From Absidia repens (taxonomy: Eukaryota; Mucoromycota; Mucoromycetes; Mucorales; Cunninghamellaceae), in NCBI GenBank assembly GCA_002105175.1, contig MCGE01000043.1:186001-250000 (forward strand): 64,000 nt of DNA, read 5' to 3'. Made by a program: the position numbers and the translations under genes. Within the stretch, counting starts at the first letter, position 1. Every line of letters begins with the position of its first letter. Positions 10,958 through 63,428 of the stretch are shown piece by piece. The notes beneath the pieces were generated by a model, which was given only the letters and a program-made list of their open reading frames with translations, did not search any database and was not told the DNA's origin.

Positions 10958-12202
10958 TTATTCATTGTCATCATCATCATCATAATCAAAGGGGGCCTTC
11001 CTGAATAAATAAATTACTTCTCTTACTATATTTTCCCCATCGTCGTCGTCACGGTCAATCTCCATAGCGTCTTCGTCCAGGTCTGAGTCATAAAATCCCC
11101 CGCAACCCGCACTGGCGTCGTAACGGTCAATCTCCATAGCGTCTTCGTCCCGCTCTGGGAAATGGTCTTGAAATATCCCGCAACTCGGGCACCACACCAG
11201 TTCCAAGTGTTGGCACGTTCTCAGCAAACGACGTAATCCGTCGGGGGTGATTCCAGGAGTACGGCTCAGACGGACTTCTACAACGGCCGGTAAATACATG
11301 GGAATGGCGTCCAACGTCTTGTCGGTGATTTTGGAGTTGCGAAGTTCAAGGTACGTGAGGTGCGGGTGGGATTGAATAAACGCAATGGCCATGTCATCGG
11401 TCGTTTCGAGGCATGCGTCCAAACAGATATGAGTCAACTGAGGCCAAACTGCAGCAGCAGTCGCACCAGACGCCGTAGCCACCAGGGAGGTATAATCCGA
11501 AGTGCAATCCTGGATACGTAACGTAGTCAGGTTCGTCAAGGCCAAGACATGGCGGGCGACGCTGGGGGCAATATGGGGATCGTTCATGGCATCCAAGTGA
11601 CAGCGTGTGATGGCCAAGTGTTGCAATGCGGTGCATGGAACGAGGGCCGAGAACAGGTCTGCATCCAAATTGTGACAGTATTCTAATTCGAGACGCGTCA
11701 GGTGCGGGTGCCAATGGCGAACCATGGCTTCCATGGACCGTTGTGTGATCCTGCTTTTGCCCAGATAAAGATGGGTCAGGTGCGGAATATACTGCGGGAC
11801 GTGTTCAAAACTTCGATCGGTGATGTGAAACCCTTCTTCAAGAATTAGGTCCGTCAGGAACGGCACATGTTGGATCAAGGCCAATAGGTCATCGTCCGAA
11901 AACTCGGCAATGCAGTTGCTATCCTCGTCGGTCACATACGTCTCGATGATGGCGATGCTGCGCACAAAAGTACCCAGCAAAGCAAGCTGCCCGTGTTGTT
12001 GTTGTTGTTGTTGTGTCAGAGCCGCTGTAATGCTGGTAAATGTTGGTACATTGCCAATATCGAGATGCCGCCAGAGCAAAGGCGTGGCTTCCTTGTAGAA
12101 GACGTGATTGACAAGCGTACAGGCGTAAAGATCCTTCTTTTTGTTCAGTTGGCTAAGAATCAATGAAATGAGCTCACAAGGAAGACGTCTATTAATGGTC
12201 AT
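10958..12202 (-). CDS. F-box/LRR protein (AMN1-like repeats), intact
   Basis: A single-exon 414-residue protein. Residues 1-45 form an F-box (MTINRRLPCELISLILSQL then KDLYACTLVNHVFYKEATPL), which would bind Skp1 and place the protein in an SCF ubiquitin ligase as substrate receptor. The rest is leucine-rich repeats of the AMN1/F-box-LRR type (LTDLILEEGFHITDRSFEHV, LTHLYLGKSRITQRSMEAM, WPQLTHICLDACLETTDDMA, TDKTLDAIPMYLPAVVEVRL). The tail is acidic with short Asp runs and a duplicated DEDAMEID segment. The substrate is unknown. It is the only unbroken gene of the four minus-strand F-box genes in blocks A and B. Confidence 0.85.
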   Translation of the reverse strand: MTINRRLPCELISLILSQLNKKKDLYACTLVNHVFYKEATPLLWRHLDIGNVPTFTSITAALTQQQQQQHGQLALLGTFVRSIAIIETYVTDEDSNCIAEFSDDDLLALIQHVPFLTDLILEEGFHITDRSFEHVPQYIPHLTHLYLGKSRITQRSMEAMVRHWHPHLTRLELEYCHNLDADLFSALVPCTALQHLAITRCHLDAMNDPHIAPSVARHVLALTNLTTLRIQDCTSDYTSLVATASGATAAAVWPQLTHICLDACLETTDDMAIAFIQSHPHLTYLELRNSKITDKTLDAIPMYLPAVVEVRLSRTPGITPDGLRRLLRTCQHLELVWCPSCGIFQDHFPERDEDAMEIDRYDASAGCGGFYDSDLDEDAMEIDRDDDDGENIVREVIYLFRKAPFDYDDDDDNE

Positions 12203-12465
12203 AAAGGAAAATATAAAAAGAGTTCGAGAAAGAAAAAAAAAAAAAAAAGGCTAAATGATAATTTAGACAATGTCGGCGTTTCCTCATCAATTAAATATTT
12301 ATAGTTTTTTAAAAATGTTGCATTTCTGAGCCACATCAAGGTACCACACACACACATACGTTTCCTCTTCCTTAACTGTAATGTTTCTTTTGCCGCAGCT
12401 GACTGGTGCAACAGAGAATAATGCGACAATACTCATTTGCGGTACAAATATATTATCCGAAGAAT

Positions 12466-22835: not shown

Positions 22836-25136
22836 ATGACGATAGATACTCCATTGAAACAGTTGAATAAAAGTATGTCGGCGCGGCCACTTGTGTAGTA
22901 CTGTAAAACAAATAGATAATATATCTTTATAGAAAACAAACGGGGATTACTGATATGATGATTTCGCCTATTCTATCGATAGACTCATCACCTAAAGATA
23001 TCCACCGACTGCATCAACGGCGGCAAAAACCATTTGAAATTGTTTTAGTAGACATTCAAGAGGCGGCCAAAAATAAAACAATTCACTGCGTCAAATTGCC
23101 TTTGAAAGAACATAATGAAGAATTGAAATTTGTAGCGTTGTCTTATCGGTGGGGTGAATTACAAGAAAAGATGGTAGATACTGACGTGGGCTACAATGCA
23201 TCTATCACTTCTTTTGCTTTGGATGATTTTTTTCAGCTCTGCCTCATGATGACGATGGAAAAAGAGGTCAAGTCCATCAAGTATGTATGGGTGGATGCGA
23301 TTTGTGTGGATCAACACCCCGCCAAGCGAAAAAACACCATTTATCACATGAGCGACATCTACGAACGTGCCACTTATATTTTGGCCGTCCCTGATCTTCA
23401 TTCCGCCTACTTGAAGAATACAATGACCAAATTTGACGACATCATCAAGGGGTCAGGCCGTTACGGCGAAGACCTGTATCACCTGATCCACGGCAACACC
23501 GACCAGCTCAAGGCCCTAGAAGAAACATTCCTGGACGACATCTGCGTGCCAAAGAACCCTGCCTTGAGGAAATTGTTGTTTGAATACACTGATTATTTTG
23601 CCAACGGCTTTATGAATGACACAGAACATTGTGCGTTTTATAATGATCTAGAAACTTTGAACCATATTTACGAAACAAGTAAAATCTCTTTTGCGTCAGC
23701 AGGTGGACTTGGCAGTGGTGGTTTTTTGACTTCGTCTCCTGCATTAGCAGCAGGTAGTGGTCGTCGCGGTCGTATGATGACAACAACCAATGGCAACCAT
23801 GGCTCGTTGAAAGATTTGCACCATTGCAGAGAAGAAACCAACTGTCCTTTGATTGCCTTTGGAACGCACGATAACGAAGCGAATTGCCACAATACGCGTA
23901 GACGTGGGCGGCATCAAACATACGACCGTGAATGCCAACAAACGATCATTGAAAGGAACCGTTGTATCCGGCAAACCATGGAACTTTTGACGGATCTCAT
24001 TAAGGATTGGTCGTCTCGCGTTTGGGTGATCAGTGAATACAGCATTGCTAAAAAGAAAAACAATCTCAAATATTGGTTCACGCAAATCAAATGGCCTCTT
24101 TGGACAAAGGAGAAGGGAGACAAAGACATGACGCATTTTACTTTTTTTAGATTTACTTTTGACAACCTTCCCTTTTCGAACGAATCCGAATCCACCTTCC
24201 ACTTATCGGGCAACTCGTCCCTCCCTGTTTACCCAACATTTCATTCGACGATGACCCGTCAGCTCAATCAACAATCCTTTCTGGAGATGATACTGTTATC
24301 CAAGGCCAGTAGACATGGTAACCCGTCTGAAGAAAGAAACCCTCCCCTCCTTCCCCCGCTCAACCGTTAACTTTTTTTTTTTTTTTTTTCTTTTAGAGGA
24401 TCGCTTCTATGCCATTCTTCCGCAAACAAAATATAAACATGTGTTTTACAACAAAAACTATGTCGATCAATGGAAAATCAGTCATCTTTTATCCGTGAAA
24501 CTGAAATTGTACGAGATCATGAACATCAAAGACAAATTGACACTTCTTTTTTGGTCCAGCGATATTCCAAGAGACAACCAACTGACCTATCCCACCTTTG
24601 CCACCACAACGCTACCCCCTTTGAACTTTGATCCTGATCTCCTGACCCGTGATCCGGTGCGCTATCCGTGCAATTTTGATTTGACCGATGCATCGAACGT
24701 CATGCTTCTATATGATCAACCCCACCCTAGTAATAATGACAACGACGATGACAATGACGATATTGCGTATCTTTCAGTGAAACCATTATCCTATTACGTG
24801 AATGATAAATTCGATAGCCGAGGTCCTACGGGCATCTCACTGCAGCAAGAAGAAGCACTCTTAAAACGCCTTGACATCGATGATCCTGAATCTCCACAAG
24901 GCGCTTCGCGTTGTCGTCTCGACTATGTATGTATTCCTGCCTTGGACATCTACACTCGGTCGAATCAACAATACCCGGGGGTCTTTTGTTGGATATGTTT
25001 AATCGGGTCGTTTCGAACAAATAAGTGGGTCCTCCATAGAAAGACAAGATTACTACTGGCAGAAACGGTGGCAGGGCTTTTCCGTTATGTTAGCAACAAG
25101 GATGATTACACATGTGTCATTTTTAATATCTATTAA
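22836..25136 (+). CDS. HET-domain protein 1
   Basis: HET domain (PF06985 type): FVALSYRWGE, YVWVDAICVDQ and MSDIYERATYILAV are its hallmark blocks. HET proteins trigger incompatibility or regulated cell death in fungi. The preferred model has three exons, 22836-22872, 22983-24317 and 24397-25136, about 703 residues. The first exon (MTIDTPLKQLNK, 37 nt, donor GTATGT) is chosen because the two other HET genes also have 37-nt phase-1 first exons. A simpler model starts at ATG 22955. The last exon is a conserved region shared with the other two genes (EDRFYAILP, SVKLKLYEIMNIKDKLTLLF). Between the HET core and DWSSRVWVISEY there is an extra Gly/His/Cys-rich insertion of roughly 110 residues. Confidence 0.85.
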
Positions 25137-36374: not shown

Positions 36375-36530
36375 AAGTAATGAGATCCTTATTGCATGTG
36401 ACACCAATGAACTGGCGCTTGAGGTGCAACCTCGCTGGGCTTGGATCTTAGCGCTTTGCGGAACCTAAAAGAACATTCCCATCATTTCTCTCTCTCTTTG
36501 TCTTTTGCTCTCTTTTTTTCTGTCTCTCTC
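36375..36530 (+). promoter_or_regulatory. Conserved upstream block of the F-box array, copy 1
   Basis: Starts GCAAGTAATGAGATCCTTAT and runs through GAGGTGCAACCTCGCTGGGC to a CT-rich tract (CTCTCTCTTTGTC) ending at the ATG. The same block lies before the other three array genes. GAGGTGCAACCTC is a short inverted repeat and could be an operator. No TATA box can be assigned confidently. Confidence 0.55.
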
Positions 36531-37502
36531 ATGAACCATCTTCATCATCTTCCATGTGAACTCATCTCGTCGATTCTTAGTCATGTCGATAAACATGACC
36601 TTTTCACGTGCGCACTTGTCGACACGTCGTTTTACAAGACCACGCTTCCTTTGCTGTGGCAAAAACTCGAGATTGTCGGCCAAGCTAACTTACATACCAT
36701 GACACGTCTTCTAGAAGCCTCCGCATCTTCCTCGTCAGCCACCGTTCTGGGTGAACGTGTTCGCAGCGTCATGATCAGGGGCGGAGTCTCCGATGACGAC
36801 CTTCTAGCCTTCATCAAACATGTCCCTCTGATCACCGACCTGTCATTGAACTATGCACGCCACCTATCGGAAGACAGTTTTGTGCACTTGCCAGGACGTG
36901 TGCCACATCTCACCCACCTTTATATCTGGGGCGCTGTCATGACCCAACGATCCATGGAAGCGATCGCGCACTGCCCATTGCAACAGCTCACCTTGGTATT
37001 TTGCGAGGAGCTTGACTCCACCATGTTTGCTTCACTGACCCGATGCAGCTCGACATTGACATTGCTCCATATCAGACAATGTTCCTTGCATGGGCTGGAA
37101 CTCCCGGACACGGCCCAACAGGCCGTCGCGAACCTCATGCGCTTGCATCATCTGACTTCTTTTCAGATCAACAGCCACGAAACCAAGTATATCCCCTTCA
37201 CCACCGCACTCGTTGTTGATCTATCATCCATGGCGCCGCGGCCGCCTGAGTTGACATTACTTTACTTGGATGGATGCCGTGACGTGACCGACGCCATGGC
37301 CACAGCGTTGCTTCAAGCCCAACCCAAGCTCACCCATGTGGGTCTTTGCTTCTCTTCACAAATCACCGACAACACCTTGGATGCCATTGCCACGTATTTA
37401 CCGGAGGTCGTCGTGGTAGAAGTCAAGGGGAATGACGCCATCACCCGCGACGGCATACATCGGTTGATGAAAACGTGTCGCAAGCTGGAGGTTGTACACT
37501 GA
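36531..37502 (+). CDS. F-box/LRR protein, array gene 1 (truncated C-terminus)
   Basis: A single-exon protein of 323 residues starting MNHLHHLPCELISSILSHVD, which is the F-box. Leucine-rich repeats follow (LITDLSLNYARHLSEDSF, LTHLYIWGAVMTQRSMEAI, LQQLTLVFCEELDSTMF, ELTLLYLDGCRDVTDAMA). The frame stops after KLEVVH. The other three array genes continue for about 60 residues (CEIYPHHFPEL and an acidic tail). The sequence after the stop still resembles that tail out of frame, so the end was lost by a small mutation. The role should be SCF substrate recognition if still functional. Confidence 0.75.
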   Translation: MNHLHHLPCELISSILSHVDKHDLFTCALVDTSFYKTTLPLLWQKLEIVGQANLHTMTRLLEASASSSSATVLGERVRSVMIRGGVSDDDLLAFIKHVPLITDLSLNYARHLSEDSFVHLPGRVPHLTHLYIWGAVMTQRSMEAIAHCPLQQLTLVFCEELDSTMFASLTRCSSTLTLLHIRQCSLHGLELPDTAQQAVANLMRLHHLTSFQINSHETKYIPFTTALVVDLSSMAPRPPELTLLYLDGCRDVTDAMATALLQAQPKLTHVGLCFSSQITDNTLDAIATYLPEVVVVEVKGNDAITRDGIHRLMKTCRKLEVVH

Positions 37503-39464: not shown

Positions 39465-39700
39465 AAAGAAGAAAAAATCAGGTTACCAAAAAACTTTTAA
39501 ATTGAATCGCATAAAAAAAGTCAAAGGTTCAATGGCGCAGCAATGAGATCCTTATTGCAAGTGACACCAATGAAATGGCGCTCAGATGCAACCTCGCTGG
39601 GCTTGGACCTTAGCGCTTCACAGAACCTAAAAGCACATTCCCATCATTTCTCTCTCTCTCTCTCTCTCTTCGTCTTTTGCTCCCTTTTTCTGTCTCTCTC
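39465..39700 (+). promoter_or_regulatory. Conserved upstream block of the F-box array, copy 2
   Basis: Same order as before the other array genes: CCAAAGAAGAAAAAATCAGG, the AATGAGATCCTTATTGCAAG segment, GCAACCTCGCTGGGCTTGG, ACATTCCCATCATTTCTC and a CT run up to the ATG at 39701. Confidence 0.55.
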
Positions 39701-40840
39701 ATGAACCATCTTAATCATCTTCCGTATGAACTCATCTCGTCGATTCTTAGTTATGTCGATAAACAGGATCTTTTCACGTGCTCTCTTGTCGACAAGTCAT
39801 TTTACAAGGCCACACTTCTTTTGCTGTGGCAAGAACTCGAGATTGACACCCAAGATACGTTACATACCATGACACGTATTCTTGAAGCATCCGCATCCTC
39901 CTGCTCCTCCTCAGCCACCGTTCTGGGTGAACTTGTTCGCAGCGTCACGATCAAGGCCAAATTATCCGATGACGACCTTTTAGCCTTCATCAAACATGTC
40001 CCTCTGATCACCGACCTGTCATTGAACTATGCAACCTACATATCGGATGACAGTTTTGTGCAAGTGGCAGGTCTTGTGCCGCATCTCACCCACCTTTATA
40101 TCTGGGGCGCTGTCATTACACAACGATCCATGGAAGCGATTGGGCACTGCCCATTGCAACAGCTCACATTGGTATTTTGCGAGGATCTTGAGTCCAACAT
40201 GTTTGCTTCACTGACCCGGTGCAGCTCGACATTGACATTGCTCAATATCAGACAATGTTCCTTGCATGGGCTGGAAACCCCCGACACGGCCCAACAGGCC
40301 GTCGCGAACGTCATGGCTTTGCATCATCTGACTTCTTTACAGATCTACTGCCACACATACGATTATTCCCCGTTCATCACCGCACTCTTTGTTGATTTAC
40401 CATCCAGGGCACCGTGGCCTGAGTTGACATCCCTTTACTTGGGTACATGCCATAACGTGACCGACTCCATGGCCATAGCGTTGCTTCAAGCCCAGCCCAA
40501 GCTCACCCATGTGGGTCTTGTTGAATCGCAAATCACCGACAAAACCTTGGATGCCATTGCCACGTATTTACCAGAGGTCGTCGAGATAAATGTAAAGTGG
40601 AATGACGGCATCACCCCCGACGGCATACATCGGTTGGTGAAAACGTGCCGCAAGCTGGAGGCTGTAGGTTGCGACAGTTGCGAGATCTATCCGCACCATT
40701 TTCCCGAATTGGACTACTTCAAAATGTACATCGATGATGAACCTCCATTTCACGTGCGCTACTTGATGGGCGAGGCATTTGTTGCTGATATTGATACTGA
40801 TACTGATACTGATACTGATTATGATAGTTGCAGATGCTGA
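39701..40840 (+). CDS. F-box/LRR protein, array gene 2
   Basis: A single exon of 379 residues. The start MNHLNHLPYELISSILSYVD is preferred over an upstream non-ATG extension. F-box at residues about 3-45, then leucine-rich repeats with the array signatures LITDLSLNYATYISDDSF, LTHLYIWGAVITQRSMEAI, ELTSLYLGTCHNVTDSMA and ITDKTLDAIATYLPEVVEI. The C-terminus has CEIYPHHFPELDYFKMYIDD and ends in a DTDTDTDTDTDYD run encoded by GATACT repeats. It is a probable SCF substrate receptor of unknown target. The spacer after it is nearly the same as the one before it, as expected of tandem duplication. Confidence 0.85.
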   Translation: MNHLNHLPYELISSILSYVDKQDLFTCSLVDKSFYKATLLLLWQELEIDTQDTLHTMTRILEASASSCSSSATVLGELVRSVTIKAKLSDDDLLAFIKHVPLITDLSLNYATYISDDSFVQVAGLVPHLTHLYIWGAVITQRSMEAIGHCPLQQLTLVFCEDLESNMFASLTRCSSTLTLLNIRQCSLHGLETPDTAQQAVANVMALHHLTSLQIYCHTYDYSPFITALFVDLPSRAPWPELTSLYLGTCHNVTDSMAIALLQAQPKLTHVGLVESQITDKTLDAIATYLPEVVEINVKWNDGITPDGIHRLVKTCRKLEAVGCDSCEIYPHHFPELDYFKMYIDDEPPFHVRYLMGEAFVADIDTDTDTDTDYDSCRC

Positions 40841-42859: not shown

Positions 42860-42903
<44 letters not shown>

Positions 42904-42929
42904 TTTGCTCTCTTTTTTCTGTCTCTCTC
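42675..42929 (+). promoter_or_regulatory. Conserved upstream block of the F-box array, copy 3
   Basis: CCAAAGAAGAAAACATCAGG, GCAAGTAATGAGATCCTTAT, CTTGAGGTGCAACCTCGCTG, then a long (CT)n tract at about 42863-42898 and CTTTTGCTCTCTTTTTTCTG before the ATG at 42930. The CT tract is longer than in the sister copies. Confidence 0.55.
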
Positions 42930-44075
42930 ATGAACCATCTTAATCATCTTCCATATGAACTCATCTCGTCGATTCTTAGTCATGTCGATAAACAGGATCT
43001 TTTCACGTGCGCACTTATCGACAAGTCGTTTTACAAGACCACGCTTCCTTTGCTGTGGCAAGTACTCGAGATTGACACTCAAGATACCTTACATACCATG
43101 ACACGAATTCTAGAAGCATCCACATCCTCCTCGTCGGCCACCGTTCTAGGTGAACTTGTTCGCAGTGTCATGCTCAGGGGCGAATTATCCGATGACGATC
43201 TTCTAGCCTTCATCAAACATGTCCCTTTGATAACCGACCTGTCATTGAAGTATTCACGCCACATATCGGATGACAGTTTTGTGCACTTGCCAGGTCTTGT
43301 GCCGCATCTCACCCACCTTTATATCTGGGGCGCTGACATTACACAGCGATCCATGGAAGCGATTGCGCACTTCCCATTGCAACAGCTCACATTGATATGC
43401 TGCCATAAATTTGACTACAACATGTTTGCTTCACTGACCCAATGCAGCTCGACATTGACATCGCTCAATATCAGAGAATGTTCCTTGCATGGGCTGGAAA
43501 CCCCCGACACGGCCCAACAGGCCGTCGCGAACCTCATGGCCTTGCATCACCTGACATCTTTTCAGATCTACAGCACCAGACACATTTATTCCCCATTCAT
43601 CACCGCACTCATTGTTGATGTACCATCCATGGCGCCATGGCCTGAGTTGACATTGCTTTACTTGTATCCATGCTATGACGTGACCGACTCCATGGCCATA
43701 GCGTTGCTTCAAGCGCAGCCCAAGCTCACCCATGTGGGTCTTGTTGATTCGCAAATCACCAACAAAACCTTGGATGCCATTGCCACGTATTTACCAGAGG
43801 TCGTCGAGATAAATGTAAAGTGGAGTGACAGCATCTACCCCGACGGCCTACGTCGGTTGTTGAAAACATGTCGCAAGCTGGAGTCTATAGGTTGCGACAT
43901 TTGCGAGATCTATCCGCACCATTTTCCCGAATTGGCCTACTTCAAAATGTACAACGATCATGAACCTCCATTTCACGTGCGCTACTTAATCGACGAGGCA
44001 TTTGTTGCTGACATTGATACTGATACTGGTACTATTGCTGATACTGAGTATTGTAATTGCAGATACTGGCCTTGA
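42930..44075 (+). CDS. F-box/LRR protein, array gene 3
   Basis: A single exon of 381 residues, starting MNHLNHLPYELISSILSHVD. The repeats follow the array pattern (LITDLSLKYSRHISDDSF, LTHLYIWGADITQRSMEAI, ITNKTLDAIATYLPEVVEI). Compared with its neighbours the residues that differ lie mostly in predicted repeat surfaces (for example LTLICCHKFDYNMF against LTLVFCEDLESNMF). That would suit diversified substrate binding, though this is inference. The C-terminus is CEIYPHHFPELAYFKMYNDH and an Asp/Thr-rich end. Confidence 0.85.
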   Translation: MNHLNHLPYELISSILSHVDKQDLFTCALIDKSFYKTTLPLLWQVLEIDTQDTLHTMTRILEASTSSSSATVLGELVRSVMLRGELSDDDLLAFIKHVPLITDLSLKYSRHISDDSFVHLPGLVPHLTHLYIWGADITQRSMEAIAHFPLQQLTLICCHKFDYNMFASLTQCSSTLTSLNIRECSLHGLETPDTAQQAVANLMALHHLTSFQIYSTRHIYSPFITALIVDVPSMAPWPELTLLYLYPCYDVTDSMAIALLQAQPKLTHVGLVDSQITNKTLDAIATYLPEVVEINVKWSDSIYPDGLRRLLKTCRKLESIGCDICEIYPHHFPELAYFKMYNDHEPPFHVRYLIDEAFVADIDTDTGTIADTEYCNCRYWP

Positions 44076-46149: not shown

Positions 46150-46396
46150 ATGACGTCTCTGTGCCAAAGAAGAAAACATCAGGTTACCAAAAAACTTTAA
46201 ATTGAATCGCATAAAAAAGTCGGAGGTTCAATGTCGCAAGTAATGAGATCCTTATTGCAAGTGACACCAATGAACTGGCGCTCGAGGTGCAACCTCGCTG
46301 GGCTTGGATCTTAGCGCTTCACAGAACCTAAAAGAACATTCCCATCATTTCTCTCTCTCTCTCTCTCTTTGTCTTTTGCTCTCTTTTCTCTCTCTC
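46150..46396 (+). promoter_or_regulatory. Conserved upstream block of the F-box array, copy 4
   Basis: Same block order as the other three, with the perfect inverted repeat CGAGGTGCAACCTCG and a CT-rich tract up to the ATG at 46397. It is the best-preserved example of the palindrome. Confidence 0.55.
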
Positions 46397-47545
46397 ATGA
46401 ACCATCTTAATCATCTTCCATCTGAACTCATCTCGTCAATTCTTAGTTATGTCGATAAACAGGATCTTTTCACGTGCGCACTTGTCGACAAGTCGTTTTA
46501 CAAGACCACACTTCCTTTACTGTGGCAAGAACTCGAGATTGGCAAGAGCCACGATGACTTACATACCATGATACGAATTCTAGAAGCATCCACATCCTCC
46601 TCCTTACCCACCGTTCTGGGTGAACTTGTTCGCAGTGTCACGATCAAGGCCAGATTATCCGATGACGACCTTCTAGCCTTCATCAAACATGTCCCTCTGA
46701 TAACCTACCTGTCATTGAACTATGCAAACCATATATCGGATGACAGTTTTGTGCAAGTGCCAGGTCTTGTGCCGCATCTCACCCACCTTAAAATCTACTA
46801 CGCTGACATTACTCAGCGATCCATGGAAGCGATGAGTCACTGCCCATTGCAACAGCTCACATTAGTAGAATGCAATGAACTTGACTACAACATGTTTGCT
46901 CCACTGACCCGGTGCAGCTCGACATTGACATCGCTCAATATCACAAATTGTTCCTTGCATGGGCTGGAAAGCCGCGACCCGGCCCAACAGGCCGTCCCGA
47001 ACCTCATGCGCTTGCATCATCTGACTTCTTTAAAGATCTACTGCAACAGACGCGATTATTACCCATTCATCAACGCACTCTTTGCTGATTTACCATCCAT
47101 GGTACCGTGGCCTGAGTTGACATCCCTTTACTTGGGTGCATTTACCGTGATGGACACCGTGGCCATCGCGTTGCTTCAAGCCCAGCCCAAGCTCACCCGT
47201 GTGGGTCTTGTTGATTCGCAAATCACCGACAAAACGTTGGATGCCATTGCCACGTATTTACCAGAGGTCGTCGAGCTGGAATTCATGGGGAGTAAGGGCA
47301 TCACCCCCGACGGCCTACGTCGGTTGTTGAAAACGTGTCGCAAGCTGGAGTCTGTAGGGTGCAACAATTGCGAGATCTATCCGTCCGATTTTCCCGAATT
47401 GGACGACACCAAAATGTACACCGATGATGATTTGGATGAACCTCCAGTGTACGTGTTGTACTTGATGGGCGAGGCATTTGTTGGTGATATTGGTCCTGTT
47501 CCTGATATTGATTATGAGAGTGGCTGGCGCCGACGTAGATGCTAA
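46397..47545 (+). CDS. F-box/LRR protein, array gene 4
   Basis: A single exon of 382 residues. The start at 46397 (MNHLNHLPSELISSILSYVD) matches the three sister genes; the open frame upstream lacks an ATG. F-box at the N-terminus, then leucine-rich repeats (LITYLSLNYANHISDDSF, LTHLKIYYADITQRSMEAM, ITDKTLDAIATYLPEVVEL). The C-terminus is CEIYPSDFPELDDTKMYTDD and ends in YESGWRRRRC, more basic than its sisters. A probable SCF substrate receptor. It shares a break in the repeat after the Tyr-rich KIYC segment with array genes 2 and 3, so the fold is probably the same. Confidence 0.85.
   Translation: MNHLNHLPSELISSILSYVDKQDLFTCALVDKSFYKTTLPLLWQELEIGKSHDDLHTMIRILEASTSSSLPTVLGELVRSVTIKARLSDDDLLAFIKHVPLITYLSLNYANHISDDSFVQVPGLVPHLTHLKIYYADITQRSMEAMSHCPLQQLTLVECNELDYNMFAPLTRCSSTLTSLNITNCSLHGLESRDPAQQAVPNLMRLHHLTSLKIYCNRRDYYPFINALFADLPSMVPWPELTSLYLGAFTVMDTVAIALLQAQPKLTRVGLVDSQITDKTLDAIATYLPEVVELEFMGSKGITPDGLRRLLKTCRKLESVGCNNCEIYPSDFPELDDTKMYTDDDLDEPPVYVLYLMGEAFVGDIGPVPDIDYESGWRRRRC

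Positions 47546-54029: not shown

Positions 54030-54092
<63 letters not shown>
54030..54092. repeat. Poly(A) tract, about 60 bases
   Basis: Uninterrupted A run 100 bases before the F-box relic. Confidence 0.9.
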
Positions 54093-54094
<2 letters not shown>

Positions 54095-54450: not shown

Positions 54451-55038
54451 GTATTCTATTACAGTGTGGTTATGTTGCGTGGTTGAGGCTTCTTTTTTTT
54501 AGGTTCTGACGATGATATATACAATCATAGGATCACCTCCAGTTCATGGAGCGAATACAGATAATGATTGGGACGAGGGCAGGATCTTGGCAATCATAAA
54601 CTGTAGATTGTAATTTTATATTTATACTTGAACTTTTTATAAATGATATAATATCAATAAAAAATAATATCCACACACTCTCTCTCTATTTTTTTTCCGG
54701 TTCCTGAATATTTCTTTTTCAGGAAACGGGTCCCTGAAACTTTTTCATATCCCGCATAAAAGGTAGGGATCTTCATCCATCAGGTTACCATGCAAAACGC
54801 AGAAAAGAGGAAGGATAATAAAAAAAAAAAATATGTTCTCCAGTAAAAACAACGTTTATGTCCATTGAGAATGTAAGAGAAAAAAAAAAAGGTTTGGTGG
54901 CGTCTTTCGGTGTCACGTACCCACATCCTTCCCGCCATTTCAAATGTCGTACCTAATCCATCCCTCCCATTCGTCAAACATCACCATCCACACTCACCTT
55001 TTCCACTCACTTTTTATTTATTTATATATATATATATT

Positions 55039-57895
55039 ATGACAAAAGACGACAAACAACCGCCTCCTTTGAAAGGCAAGTCAAAAACCTTCCGTCGCTC
55101 CTTGAAGGAGTAGATAGGGGACAACAACGCTTATACGTTTTTTTTAAATATATATGTATCTAGTTCTGCTGGTCGGGGATAAAAACGTTGGTAAGTGTTT
55201 CTCTTGAAGAACAGTAAATGCGTTTACCAACAAGTCAAAAAGATATATGTATATACTTATTGCACGGTGACTTTGTGTGTGTAGGCAAAACGAAACTGGT
55301 GACGCGATTCACAAGGGATGTCTATGACTCGACTTGCGAATGCTCTACACATGGCGCTCAGGTGGATACGCATCACGTTCAAGTCAACGACACATTGGTT
55401 TCCTTGGAACTATGGGATATTGGTAAGTTGTTTCCCTTACCTACGTAATAGCACCCACTTGTATCAAACAATGCCCTCTCTTTTTTTTAGGCGGCGGAGA
55501 AAAATCTCATGCTCTGATTTCATCGTAAGCGTTCATCTATTTCCTATTCTACGTTGAAGAAAAAAAAAAAAAAAAAACTCAATGCTACTTTGGTTTTTGT
55601 TGTCATGACCCCCCCAAAAAAAGGTTATGTCATGAACAAACGGTTGTTGTGTTGTTGGTTTATGACGTTTCCAATCATGCTAGCTTTGAACATATCACCA
55701 ATTGGTACCAAACGACACAACAGACAGGCGCCGTGAAACGATTTTATCTTGTGGGAAATAAGAGTGATGTGTCATCGAATGAACGTGCAGTGACTACCGA
55801 GGAGGCCAACCGGTTTGCTTCTGACCGTGGTCTCTTCTTTATTGAAACGTCTACAAAGAGTGGTAGTAATGTTACTGAAGCATTTCAACATATTGCTGAA
55901 GGTAAGTAAAACAAGATAGGGCAAGGTATAGTAACTGATATATATATATATGTATGTCTTTGAACTAGAAAACATTGTCACGCAAGGTACATCCCAACCC
56001 CGCTCCCCAAATCATCCTCACCGTTTCCATACTGACTCCCGCTTCTTTTTTTTTTTTAATTAAGAACCACCGGAAACGCCATTCAAGGTGGTATTAATCG
56101 ACATCCAACGGGCGGCCAAGCAACGGGAACTGCATTGTGTGGAAACCCCGTTGGCCTCGTCCAGTCAGCTAACACCGTTTGTGGCGTTATCGTACCGGTG
56201 GGGGGAGCTACCGGAAATGCTGGTGGATACGAGCCAAGACTACATGGCATCGGTGATGTCGTTCCATTTGACCGACCTGTTTGATCTGTGTGCGTTGATG
56301 GCCCAGGAACCGGATCTCAAGACCATCCCGTATCTGTGGCTGGATGCCATTTGTGTCGATCAAGTCAATCCCGTCCGACGCAAAGCCACCATTTATCAGA
56401 TGACCGCCATTTATGAACAAGCCGCGTACATCGTTGCCGTCCCCGATCTGCATCGTGAGTACCTGGCCACGTCGCTGGTCAATAGCAGCCGCATCATCAG
56501 CTTGATTGCCACGTATCGGCATATGATTTATTGTCTGATCATTCAGAAGGAAGGTATGGCCGCCACGGAGCTTGATCAGCAATGGATGGACTCGATTGGT
56601 ATACCGAAGGGGAATCTTGAACGGCGACAATGGTTCATGGATACCTGCTTCTCCAAGAAGATCCGTTGCAGGCCTACAGCTACAGACATGGGTGATGAAT
56701 CCGTGGACGCATGGTGGGTTCGGCAAGTTGAGGAAGACGATTGGAAACAACAGATCTCACAACGGGGCAGCGACATTTCACAGGCCATGACGTTTTTGAC
56801 ACAGCTCATTGTGGACTGGTCGTCACGCGTCTGGGTCATCAGCGAATATCAGCTGGCGAAAAAAAAGCCGTCGGGGAAAATGAAGTACTGGTTTATGCTG
56901 CTTGGGTATTCTTATTTTTTGGGCGAGCCCTTTTTTGAATTCCATTTTGATGCCACCACGCGTGATGCCAATGTGGGCGAGAACAAGGGCACCTATGCTT
57001 TCCAAGTGGATCAGTCTGTGCGGCTGTTTCACAACGCTATGGTGCGACAGTTGAAAGAACAATCCTTTTTGGAAATGATCTTAGGATCCAAGGCAAGCAA
57101 AAATGGTAAAGTTTTAAGAAGAAGGGGTTGCCGACAGTACAGTTCAGTACATGCATTTAACTTTTTTTTTTTGTTTTCTCTCTAGAGGATCGATTTTATT
57201 CGATTTTGCCATTATCTGAATATCGCCACCAGCTTATCTCCGCCACCGATCAAAAAAAGAAATCGATTGATCAGTGGCATATCACCACCATTGTCACCGT
57301 CAAAGTAAAACTGTTTGAATTCATGAAGGCCTTGGATCAATTGACCCTCTTGTTTTTATCATTTCAGCAATACACGCTGATTTTACCGTCGTTTGCTACA
57401 GCCGATGTTGCCTGGGCACGATTAACGGAGTTTCAACAATATGACCATACGAACTTTGACTTTAGCAAGCCTGATCAAATCGTAGCCCTTTCTCAGCGAC
57501 AACTCAATAACGGCAGCAATGGCGACAAAGCGGATGTCCTTTCTCTTCAGCCCAAAATGTATTATAGGCTTCATTACAATGACGAAAGTATTCAGCTTAT
57601 TACAGGTGTTGCACCAGAGGATAAGCAACAGCAGCAATTATGGCACCGGTTGGGACTCGATACGGTTCATGATCGTAGCTGGGACATGGTGTGCATTCCT
57701 AATGATTATGGCCCTGCCGCCATCAATGATCCTGCTTTGGAAGACATGACGAAATTGTTATTGCTTGGGAATGCAGAAAAGAACAAATGGATTTTGTATA
57801 CAACATACAGTGTGAACTATTGGTGGCAGTACAATCCCTCGGCATGGAAAACATATGACAACCAAAGTACTGGCACTGTGTTTGCTATTTATTGA
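55039..57895 (+). CDS. Rab/Ras-like small GTPase fused to a HET domain
   Basis: Eight exons (55039-55075, 55164-55190, 55285-55422, 55491-55524, 55624-55901, 55969-55986, 56065-57105, 57186-57895) stay in phase over about 760 residues. GTPase, residues about 10-172: G1 VGDKNVGKT, G3 LELWDIGGGEK, G4 GNKSD, G5 ETSTKSG, with VLLVYDVSNHASFEHITNWY between. The Gln-61 position of Ras is Gly. HET domain from about residue 184: VALSYRWGE, YLWLDAICVDQ, MTAIYEQAAYIVAV, then DWSSRVWVISEY and the conserved last exon. Intron 1 is GC-AG (AAAG|GCAAGT); it alone restores LKVLLVGD. An 18-nt exon is optional because it is divisible by three. The HET exon has no ATG of its own before the domain, and an in-frame TAA precedes it. 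An alternative is two genes, with a downstream start at MYVFELENIVTQ near 55952 and a GTPase ending AEGK. Confidence 0.75.
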
Positions 57896-58713: not shown

Positions 58714-60702
58714 CTAATAAATATCAAACCCATGACTATAATCCTCATGACAATAATGAAGTGTATAGTTTTCCTCGCACATCAGTGCTTCTGTACCAAA
58801 ATGCTCTTCCAACATCCATTTGTTATTCACCAAACTACCCACTAAAAAGATATAGTTCACGATGCCAGCCACCGACCCATCCACGGCACGAAACTGGCAT
58901 GGTGTGGGGGTATGGCTGATATGTGTAGGGATACAAACAATATCAGGCACATCATCCGTGTCGAGGAGCCCTAAACGACGTGCGGCGGATCTGTTGTTTT
59001 GCTGAAGATTGATTTGACACAACTCATCCACAAAGTCATTTTTCAATCGATAAAAGGTGATAGGTTTGAGCGTGAGTTTATATAACCACGACGACGACGA
59101 CGACGAGGAGAAAGAGGTTCCATGGTTTTCTTTTGTATTTTTCGGTTGCACCTTCGTCAAGTTCAAGACGTGGTCATGGATCAAATCAAAATTCCCGCCC
59201 TCCTGCTGGATCGGAAACGTAGGATACTCATCGACATTTTCAGGCCAATAAATATTCGTGGTGGCAAAGGTTGGTAGCACTTTGGTGTGTTTGATGGAAT
59301 GTTGACCCCCAGATAAAAAAAGCAGCGTCAATTTATCCTCGACCGTCATCCATTCAAATAATTTGAGCTTGACAGAAAACGTGTTATGGATTTGCCAACT
59401 GTCCACCACATCTTTGGTCGTCAGTTTGTGTTTGTATTTGGATAAAGGTAACACCGCATAAAATCGATCCTCTACACTTCAGCAAAAAATAAAATACATT
59501 ATTATTGCTTTCCTCCTCCTTCCCATACACCACCGCGTCATCACCATGACTTACCATTTTTGCATGCCTTGGAATCCAACATCATTTCCAAAAATGTAGG
59601 CTGATCCAGCTGCCGCACCATGAGTTGATGGAACTGGTTGTAGATCGCATCGCAGGCAACAATCGATTCATGGAACGCCGGGTGACTGTTGGTGATAAAC
59701 GCATCGTCCAGCAGCGTGGACAAAAACGAGCGTGTGGGGTCGCGAAAATCAAATTCAAAGAAACCAACACCACCGGGACTGGACAACCATGCTGGCGACG
59801 ACGGCGACAGTTGAAGAAACCAATATTTCAACTTGTGTTTTGTATGTTTGGCAATATGACATTCACTGATCACCCACACACGCGACGACCAATCCCTGAC
59901 AAGATCCGACAAGAAATCCATCGACGTTTGGATGGTTTGTGTTCGTTGGGCAATCCTGGCTTCCATACTACTACTAGAGGCGGGTGAGTCATTGTTCGTC
60001 GGGTTGGCATGGGCCTTTAACCATGCATGGTCGAGCTCCGCCAACCGATCTGTATTGCCATGGATCAGATGAAATAAATAATCACTGATAGGACGAGTGG
60101 CCTCGACGATTTCCCAGTTTTTCGAGGTGGTCATGGCCAAGTGTCGTAAATGCAAGTCCGGGACGGCCAGCACATAACGCGCACCGGCGTAAATGTCGCT
60201 CATGCGATAAATCGTGGCCTTGCGGTGTGTCGGGTTGGTTTGATCCACACAGATCGCATCCACCCACACATAGTCGATGGCATGAAGATCGGGTTCCTGA
60301 CGGATCATAGAACACAGGCGATAAAAGTCGTCCAAATCAAACGACGTGATCGTCGCCAAATACCCAAGGTCTGTATCGATAATCGTTTCGGATAGTTCGC
60401 CCCATCGATATGATAACGCCACGTAGTCTATAGGCTGATTCTCTGATGGTTTGCTGAGCCGTCTTTCGATGCACTGGATGATATTATCGTTGGCAGCTTT
60501 TTCCAAGTCGACAAGCACAATATCAAACGGCGTGTAGTCCTCGTCGTCTACGTCGGTGTTGTCAGTGTCAGTATTGGCATTGGAGGATAGATCTATAATC
60601 AACTTGGATTGTCAATCTTGGTTTTTTTCTTTTTTCCCCTCTTTAAAGATCGCTTGTTTACTTGCCTTGGCCGAGATGATCATAGTCATCTTCGCTTGTC
60701 AT
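58714..60702 (-). CDS. HET-domain protein 3
   Basis: Three exons, 60702-60666, 60592-59555 and 59471-58714, give about 610 residues. Exon 1 (MTSEDDYDHLGQ) is 37 nt and ends in phase 1 at CAAG|GCAAGT, a GC-AG intron; without it the HET exon has no ATG. HET motifs: YVALSYRWGE, YVWVDAICVDQ, RKATIYRMSDIYAGARYVLA. After the domain come DWSSRVWVISECHIAK and LEMMLDSKACKNG, then the last exon EDRFYAVLPLSKYKHKL with KLFEWMTVEDKLTLLFLS. The second splice site has the same position and phase as in the other two HET genes. It likely acts in incompatibility or cell-death signalling, and is convergent with the GTPase-HET gene. Confidence 0.85.
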
Positions 60703-61497: not shown

Positions 61498-63428
61498 ATG
61501 AAAAAATTCTTCATCCTTTTACTATGTCTTTCGGCCATAGCAACTACCCTTAATGCTCAACTTGGAGACGACCCATTCTCAACATCAACGACACCACCAT
61601 CGGAATGGGCTGAAACTGGCACCATGATTCAAACTGGACGCACAGGCGTCACAGCGATGCATGCCGTTTTGCTAAAGTAAGTTGCCTTCTCTCCTTTTAT
61701 TTTTCTTCTTCTTCCTCTTCTCACTTATATCTTGTTATTTTCTAGCGAAAACAATATTCTGATTATTGACAAAGGTAAAAAACGAGATCCGTCATAAACC
61801 TGACTGTTTTATTGATCCTCAAACATCAACTTATTGTTGGTTTTTTAGCGGAATGGAACGAAGCCCAGTTGGATTCGGGGATCAGTGCTTACTCTTGTGA
61901 ATACCATATTGACACCAATACGTACCGTACCTTGGCTTTACAATCCAATACATTCTGTTCGGCGGGTGGGTTTCTTGGCAATGGTACTATGATCAGTACA
62001 GGCGGTGCTGAAGGTGTAGGGTAAAAACTTGGAACACCTCAAGAAAAATGAACTTGCCTTACTAAACACACGCCCATTTTTAACATTTTGTAGACGATGG
62101 GGACTCAAAGCCAAAAAGGGCCACCAAGCCGTTCGCCACTTTGACGTATGTAACGACCGAACATGTGAATGGCATGAGTACAGCGCCAACCGTATGACCA
62201 ACGATCGATGGTACCCGACTGTAGAACAACTCCCACTGGCGACTTGTTTATCATTGGTGGCAGTATCAAAGGCACAAAAGTCAATAATGAACTCGTCAAT
62301 GTCCCCTCGTATGAATTCTGGCCTCCTCGACCGGAGCGTGGTCAAGTGCATTTACCATTCTTGGAAGCGCCCACCATGCCCTACAACCTGTAAGTTCGTC
62401 GTCATTCCTTTTATTAGAAATTTTTGATCGGTGAACTCAATTTCTCTACGATGATTTAGATACCCTTTTGTGTTTCTTTACCCAATGGTCACCTCTTCAT
62501 CTTTGCCAACACCAAATCCATGATTTTCGACTATGAAGCCAACAAAGTGATTCAACAACTACCGGATTTACCAGGCGTGCCTCGCTCGTACCCGTTGACG
62601 GGGGGTGCTGTCATGTTACCTTTGGATCCTGCCAACAACTATGCGGTGGAAATTCTGATCTGTGGTGGTTCGGAACGGATGCATGCCAATAGTCCTGCCG
62701 ATGCCACCTGTGGCCGCATTAATCTAGACGACACAAAACCGACATGGGAAATGGATACATTTGTGTCACCACGCCTGATGCCCGATGGGGTCATTTTAGC
62801 CGATGGATCCATTGGATGGGTCAATGGTTGCCAACGTGGCTGGGCTGGCTACTCACACCGAAATCATGATCCTACCTTCAACCCGCTCATTTATCATCCC
62901 AACCAACCCTTTGGCGATCGGTGGCAAAGTGGACTGGCCAACACGACAATTGCAAGGATGTATCATTCAGTGGCACTGACCTTACCTGATGGTCGGATTT
63001 GGATTGCTGGATCCAACAACAATGATCCTCCTGATGTCGATGCGTTGTATCCCACTGAATTCCGTGTCGAATATTTCTCACCACCATATTTGTTCAAAGG
63101 ACCGCGACCGCGTGTGGCCCATGTGCCGTCCCAATGGATCTACGGTGCTTCGTATGACTTTTTGGTCCATCTTCCCTCTCCCAATACAGATCAGCGCCCG
63201 TTGAAGGTTGGTTTATTGCGTCCTGGTTTCAGTACACATTCGCTTCACATGTCGCAACGGTATCTGGTGTTACGCCATACCTTGTCCTCGGATGGCCAAA
63301 CCCTCATTGTCCATGCCCCTCCCAAACCGTCCTTGTTTCCACCAGGAAAAGGGTATCTCTTTGTCGTCCATGATGGTGTGCCGTCCGTAGGTGTTGAGAT
63401 TGATATCCAACCCTCCTCCTCCTCTTAG
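61498..63428 (+). CDS. Glyoxal-oxidase-like copper radical oxidase, two apparent frameshifts
   Basis: Signal peptide MKKFFILLLCLSAIATTLNA. Exons about 61498-61676, 61746-61774, 61849-62020, 62094-62389 and 62460-63428. Family marks: TGRTGVTAMHAVLL, CSAGGFLGNGTMISTGG (thioether Cys region), DVCNDRTCEWHEY, NDRWYPTVEQLP (Tyr region), FIIGGS, ARMYHSVALTLPDGRIWIAG (copper-ligand Tyr and His), GFSTHSLHMSQRYL and a C-terminal DUF1929-like domain. Such AA5 enzymes oxidise aldehydes such as glyoxal to acids and make extracellular H2O2. The frame changes at about 62233 (QLP to TGDLF; a base missing in CTCCCACTGG) and again near 62472 (YPFV to SLPNGHLFIF). Either a recent pseudogene or base-call errors. 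Confidence 0.8.

Follow-up and report, generated by a model that had tools for sequence, protein, structure and literature searches.

A locus of the soil mould Absidia repens raises the question of whether a small GTPase and a HET domain that adjoin each other on the forward strand are encoded by one gene or by two. It is located in the 64,000-nucleotide stretch analysed here, referred to as the window, which lies within contig C38 (339,068 bases) of the 47.4-Mb genome. Eight exons on the forward strand (55039-57895) join to a frame of 760 aa without an internal stop. Exon 1 (MTKDDKQPPPLK; 55039-55075) has 37 nt, ends in phase 1 and encodes the start MTKDD. Exon 2 (55164-55190) is a micro-exon of 27 nt that carries the first half of the P-loop (VLLVGDKNV), exon 3 (55285-55422) extends from GKT through switch I up to WDI, exon 4 (55491-55524; 34 nt) encodes GGEKSHALIS, and exon 5 (55624-55901) contains the NKSD and ETSTK motifs and helix alpha-5. 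The 18-nt exon 6 (55969-55986; ENIVTQ) completes alpha-5 and links the GTPase to exon 7 (56065-57105), which encodes the HET domain (SYRWGE ... WLDAICVDQ ... SSRVWVISEY). Exon 8 (57186-57895) encodes the C-terminal part that members of the Absidia HET family share and ends in ...VFAIY. All introns are GT-AG except intron 1 (55076-55163), which is GC-AG. Its donor, gcaagt, is shared among 26 resolved HET paralogues with the neighbouring gene P0049 alone, as called by an exon-calling script that favoured GT over GC donors where both were possible.

Pfam Ras matched residues 12-172 of the spliced protein (E 2.7e-37, 128.3 bits against a cut-off of 21.6) and Pfam HET matched residues 216-303 (E 5.2e-12, 46.8 bits against a gathering score of 22.5). 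This confirms the observation of the earlier note that GTPase motifs are followed, through two splice junctions, by a HET domain in a single frame. The fusion is further backed by five intron positions conserved with Rab11 and, at the 55039 start, by a promoter element and a first exon that resemble those of HET genes. Of the HET domain, described in the note as full, Pfam aligns no more than profile positions 1-85 of 146; what follows can be recognised from columns that are conserved in an alignment of 40 relatives. The invariant columns SYRWGE, W-x-D-A and R-x-W-V-I-x-E, counted from the public model P0001 in row 1 of the alignment, are all present in the fusion. The last of them recalls the W-x-x-x-E motif of TIR domains, and no Pfam TIR was found in any of the 40 HET relatives at E 0.001. 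The HET profile matched no chain among the PDB sequences at E 10. In the Pfam scan, only GTPase-type models and HET scored above the cut-offs, and a combination of NACHT/NB-ARC with repeats was not found.

The best relative of the GTPase in its own genome, self excluded, is a Rab11 of the Ypt31/32 type (L039, C1:621500-625000), and the best PDB match is Rab11A. The exon lengths are 37/27/138/34/278 nt in the fusion GTPase and 37/27/135/34/275 nt in Rab11, with the 27-nt micro-exon at the equal place, and the exon-end phases of both are 1, 1, 1, 2 and 1. Five intron positions coincide, the fourth being off by one alignment column beside a gap, and two Rab11-like genes (L040 and L042) are contiguous over the first two of them. 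Because the introns are retained, the Rab11-type exons are not a retrocopy. Intron 5 (55902-55968), which contains the start codon of the public model at 55950, corresponds in position and phase to Rab11 intron 5 and is thus an old Rab11 intron. The residue is kept at 75 of 174 aligned codons (43% identity), and the nucleotide identities at the three codon positions are 0.60, 0.63 and 0.44, respectively. Neutral simulations to equal divergence (n = 400) produced a mean of 5.9 stops, and a single run was free of them. The absence of a stop or frameshift over 174 codons and the strongest divergence at third positions indicate that the cassette has been under protein-level selection, and the G domain maintained as a protein, over much of its history.

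The proposal of a Rab-like switch ahead of HET is less well supported than the fusion itself, and the claim that all GTP-binding motifs are present holds in part. The P-loop Lys-Thr (GDKNVGKT), the switch-I Thr, NKSD and ETSTK are kept, so that G1, G4 and G5 are shared with Rab11. In contrast, the G3 motif WDTAGQE of Rab11 has become WDIGGGE with loss of the catalytic Gln, which is accordingly missing from exon 4; the P-loop has changed from GDSGTGKT to GDKNVGKT, with K and N at the positions equal to Ras G12 and G13; and the Rab signature YYRGA is replaced by CHEQT. GTP hydrolysis and the binding of Rab effectors require these changed residues. Moreover, Rab11 ends in GGCC, whereas the fusion runs into HET without prenyl cysteines. 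As the note had claimed, the GTPase has no prenylation motif: if intron 5 were retained it would stop at AEGK and if intron 6 were retained at SRFFFFFN, and neither end contains a cysteine. Judged by these ends, the GTPase could not end well alone. The same fusion gene might still encode a true switch in which the HET effector is activated or shut down by GTP loading, as the retained G1, switch-I Thr, NKSD and ETSTK would allow. However, the changes at the catalytic Gln, the G12/G13-equivalent positions and YYRGA make a normal GTP/GDP cycle doubtful, and the missing prenylation motif implies that a membrane cycle of the usual kind would not occur. We regard a true switch as rather unlikely.

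The beginning of the gene was compared with those of the Absidia HET family. Among 106 HET proteins, 76 (three of them from outgroup genera) start with MT as the fusion does, and 77 of the 106 were located in the loci fetched. The first exon and first intron could be resolved in 26 of these, all from A. repens; the others located comprise 47 unresolved ones (37 from A. cylindrospora, 9 from A. repens and 1 other), three that are intronless there, and P0001. In all 26 resolved paralogues exon 1 ends in phase 1, and in 21 of them it is 37 nt long. The fusion shares with the family (PF06985; e.g. P0009 and P0049) the HET body, the C-terminal part, the length and phase of the first exon and a promoter element. 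It differs in that exon 1 of the 26 resolved paralogues is separated from the HET body by a single intron, whereas five additional G-domain exons lie there in the fusion. On a matrix built from HET first exons, the 5′ half of the fusion exon 1 scored 16.1 (3.5 to 19.2 for paralogues left out one at a time) and the 3′ half −9.7 (0.4 to 22.7 for paralogues). Because this 3′ half is unlike those of the paralogues, the score of the whole exon is low (6.4), below all 21 paralogues (10.5-38.0) and also below Rab11 exon 1 (13.0).

The promoter-like element TTCAAATGTCGTACC (54939-54953, forward strand) starts 100 nt before the ATG at 55039. Its family consensus is cTCAAACGCCACAca, and 13 of the 26 paralogues carry it with a score above the 95th percentile of 3720 control windows (12 at −74 to −104 and one at −139). 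At −100 of the fusion gene it scored 12.3 (null P 0.011), a P value that is if anything too high because the control windows included HET loci; P was 0.49 for Rab11 and 0.87 for the public start at 55950. The element was picked after inspection of shared upstream words, and in this position it is the sole promoter evidence used. Two other words, TCAGGTAC and AAACGCCA, each present in 9 of 26 HET genes, do not occur within the 600 nt that precede 55039. The word TCAGGTAC is a second shared promoter word of the family, located at −260 to −330 in those nine genes (upstream regions, e.g. L010-L038). An unmasked search for upstream motifs returned poly-T and poly-A only. A shared promoter sought by alignment of whole upstream regions was not retained: P0035 (z 6.1) and P0042 (z 3.5) stood out of 27 regions, and Rab11 (z 2.2) did not. 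On the evidence of the exon and the element, 55039 looks like the start of a HET gene, with the reservations given by the 3′ half of the exon. An initial view that exon 1 is simply a HET exon, which would have proven an insertion in HET intron 1, was dropped since Rab11 exon 1 is also 37 nt long and in phase 1 and scores higher (13.0 against 6.4). Exon 1 could descend from either HET or Rab11.

The public annotation contradicts the fusion. The NCBI model P0001 (BCR42DRAFT_473986) is 100% identical across the HET part, has 595 aa, contains HET only and starts at ATG 55950 (MYVFELENIVTQE...). The claim that the HET exon has no start codon before its domain is true of exon 56065-57105, whose frame is closed directly upstream by an in-frame stop (56061-56063), and fails for the model, which uses the ATG one exon earlier. 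P0001 would fit two neighbouring genes, a HET gene beginning at 55950 and, just upstream, a Rab11-like gene or gene remnant of its own that the annotation lacks, and the first coding exon of the model (55950-55986) likewise has 37 nt, phase 1 and the CAAG end of many HET exons. Against such a pair, a mere 48 nt separate GTPase exon 5 from the ATG, which lies within the Rab11-conserved intron; the HET promoter element is missing there; on the matrix of HET first exons the 55950 exon has a score of −21.5, and the model starts with MY instead of the usual MT; and a stand-alone GTPase would lack a lipid anchor. Two genes are, in our judgement, improbable. We give equally little credence to an mRNA joining exon 1 to exon 7 as the main product, with the Rab11 cassette rarely included or a decaying insert in intron 1: this skip leaves an open frame of 595 aa that resembles a normal family member (MTKDDKQPPPLKEPPETPFKVVLID), the intron 4 acceptor (CCCCAAAAAAAG) in front of exon 5 is weak (−4.3, with all 31 reference acceptors higher and the lowest at −0.7) and the catalytic and Rab-specific residues are gone, but the cassette has stayed free of stops and frameshifts at 43% identity, with third positions diverging most.

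The single gene that we favour has no counterpart in the set searched. At least 150 Pfam HET matches exceed the cut-off in the A. repens genome (150 of 171 candidates scored), and at least 117, the fusion gene included, cover the N-terminal HET part among the 232 matches listed. Ras-type exons stand beside a HET gene at this locus only, the next nearest pair being about 27 kb apart (C14), among the matches listed (150 of 171 and 150 of 178 candidates scored). A tblastn search for GTPase relics at other HET loci, in 85 fetched stretches, some of them overlapping and one (L009) being the locus itself, and in the window gave no other match better than E 0.52. Among the best 120 of 583 proteins of 97-310 aa, none matches the GTPase better than about 42%, so no model of this GTPase is known in this length range. 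Among proteins of 418-1330 aa (120 of 167 listed, plus 3 of 3), Ras and HET occur together in the precomputed Pfam column of none; these columns depend on annotation, which missed the fusion gene itself, and models of 311-417 aa fall between the two ranges covered. Within the searched genome, loci and listed proteins, the fusion was found neither in a second species nor as a paralogue, and no open-access literature naming a HET domain with a Rab GTPase, or both Pfam accessions, was found. The novelty that the note suspected is thus upheld for the genome, proteins and open-access literature searched, with the qualification that the fusion is known here from the genomic sequence of one gene in one species. 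For comparison, 52 HET proteins were reported for Lichtheimia and none for the other Mucorales sequenced by 2014, according to a section of PMC4133162.

The window contains three HET genes. The HET paralogue P0049 (BCR42DRAFT_456788; 58714-60702, reverse strand, exons 60702-60666, 60592-59555 and 59471-58714) lies tail to tail with the fusion and has no GTPase. The first exons of another family gene, P0037 (BCR42DRAFT_496633), are at 22836-24370 on the forward strand, with a 37-nt first exon and without a GTPase. Six F-box-like ORFs, two with LRR-type matches, are found at 1027-1959 and 10961-12250 on the reverse strand and at 36423-37499, 39614-40837, 42861-44072 and 46274-47542 on the forward strand. 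A run of 64 A (54030-54093), possibly an insertion scar, precedes the fusion gene by about 950 nt, and an ORF similar to glyoxal oxidase/galactose oxidase (62460-63425, forward strand) adjoins the HET pair.

Exon 1 of the HET family unexpectedly resembles exon 1 of Rab11 in length, phase and sequence, in a comparison conceived after the data had been seen. The mean nucleotide identity of the 21 paralogues to Rab11 exon 1 is 16.2/33, against 9.8 when the codons are shuffled (as high in 1 of 2000 shuffles), and 128 control windows average 9.0/33 with a maximum of 16. The closest is P0049 (23/33), and the fusion gene has 18/33. The family consensus peptide MTKDDPVEHLFQ scores 28 against MSRDDEYDYLFK of Rab11, a value reached by none of 5000 permutations; 8316 control ATG windows average −11.7 and do not exceed 23 if one HET-type start among them, with a score of 25, is set aside. 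Individual peptide scores are 29 for P0009 and 27 for P0049, two of the deepest family branches, with a median of 10 for 73 family starts. A Rab11-HET fusion may have founded the whole Absidia HET family, the other members having lost Rab11 exons 2-6 and kept the 37-nt phase-1 exon 1. The peptide likeness, far beyond chance, highest in P0009 and P0049 and absent from seven outgroup-side HETs (−13 to 5), speaks for this, as does the HET tree of 97 rows, in which the fusion is sister to the remaining 89 members of the family (SH-aLRT 73.8), and that of 35 chosen rows, in which it is sister to the other family members (98/96). However, the branch of the fusion is long, an AU test on the 35 chosen rows does not reject trees that join it to P0049 or to P0009 (p 0.132 for either), its own exon 1 scores just 13, and the HET promoter element is missing from Rab11. 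We offer the founder as a tentative idea, and with no greater confidence the idea that the present gene is its living form. Alternatively, the Rab11 cassette could have entered intron 1 of a HET gene, the exon-1 likeness being due to chance or having aided recombination; the HET-type promoter element fits this origin a little better.

Returning to the function, it is probable that 55039-57895 is one gene for a 760-aa protein in which a Rab11-derived G domain regulates or targets an Absidia-type HET effector in cis. It would be built from a HET gene anatomy (promoter element, HET-like first exon, body and tail) and from Rab11 exons 2-6, which form a symmetric phase-1 cassette between the first exon and the HET body. 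Since exon 1 ends in phase 1 and so does the cassette, an mRNA that lacks the cassette is also in frame, and with the exon 1-to-7 skip open, one gene may make both forms. We infer transcription across the GTPase-HET junction, a death output and a role of the G domain as bait. The G domain probably mimics Rab11 as a bait or scaffold that is soluble and for the most part bound to GTP; an attack on, or a mismatch in, the Rab11 trafficking machinery would then be sensed and HET activity released. From the sequence, a bait or fixed regulator appears likelier than a cycling switch because the catalytic Gln, the Rab-specific surface and the lipid anchor are lost and the GTP-binding motifs are kept. 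Such a bait would correspond to the integrated-decoy concept known from plants. It is also modelled, by analogy, on PLP-1/SEC-9 (as outlined in PMC12881547).

HET proteins are among the commonest suspected fungal cell-death effectors, and their control outside the NLR type is poorly known. Parts of PMC10197012 and PMC4986451 describe HET as sufficient for the induction of cell death and as possibly related to TIR, and its molecular and structural characterisation is called for in PMC10197012. The HET row of a table in PMC12881547 gives ND twice, yet the accompanying text mentions hydrolase activity. As a section of PMC4986451 reports no NLR hits in Mucorales, a GTPase within the HET protein would reveal a further means of equipping this effector with a nucleotide-binding or bait module. 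A Rab11-type GTPase in front could be a new way to control a HET death protein, and the fusion is a candidate for the origin of a family that numbers some hundred genes or more.

Among known systems, the HET-NACHT-WD40 receptors of Podospora anserina (HET-E, HET-D and HET-R), as they are outlined in the sources, likewise combine a HET effector and a nucleotide-binding domain in one chain. They carry HET at the N-terminus, followed by a central NACHT and WD40 repeats, whereas the fusion has a Rab11-type GTPase at the N-terminus and neither NACHT nor repeats. In fungal cell death, passages of PMC12881547 propose the traffic protein SEC-9 as guardee of PLP-1 in Neurospora. The likeness to the fusion is by analogy only, in that a cell-death protein is proposed to watch a component of membrane traffic; there, guard and guardee are separate proteins and the effector is a patatin instead of a HET domain.
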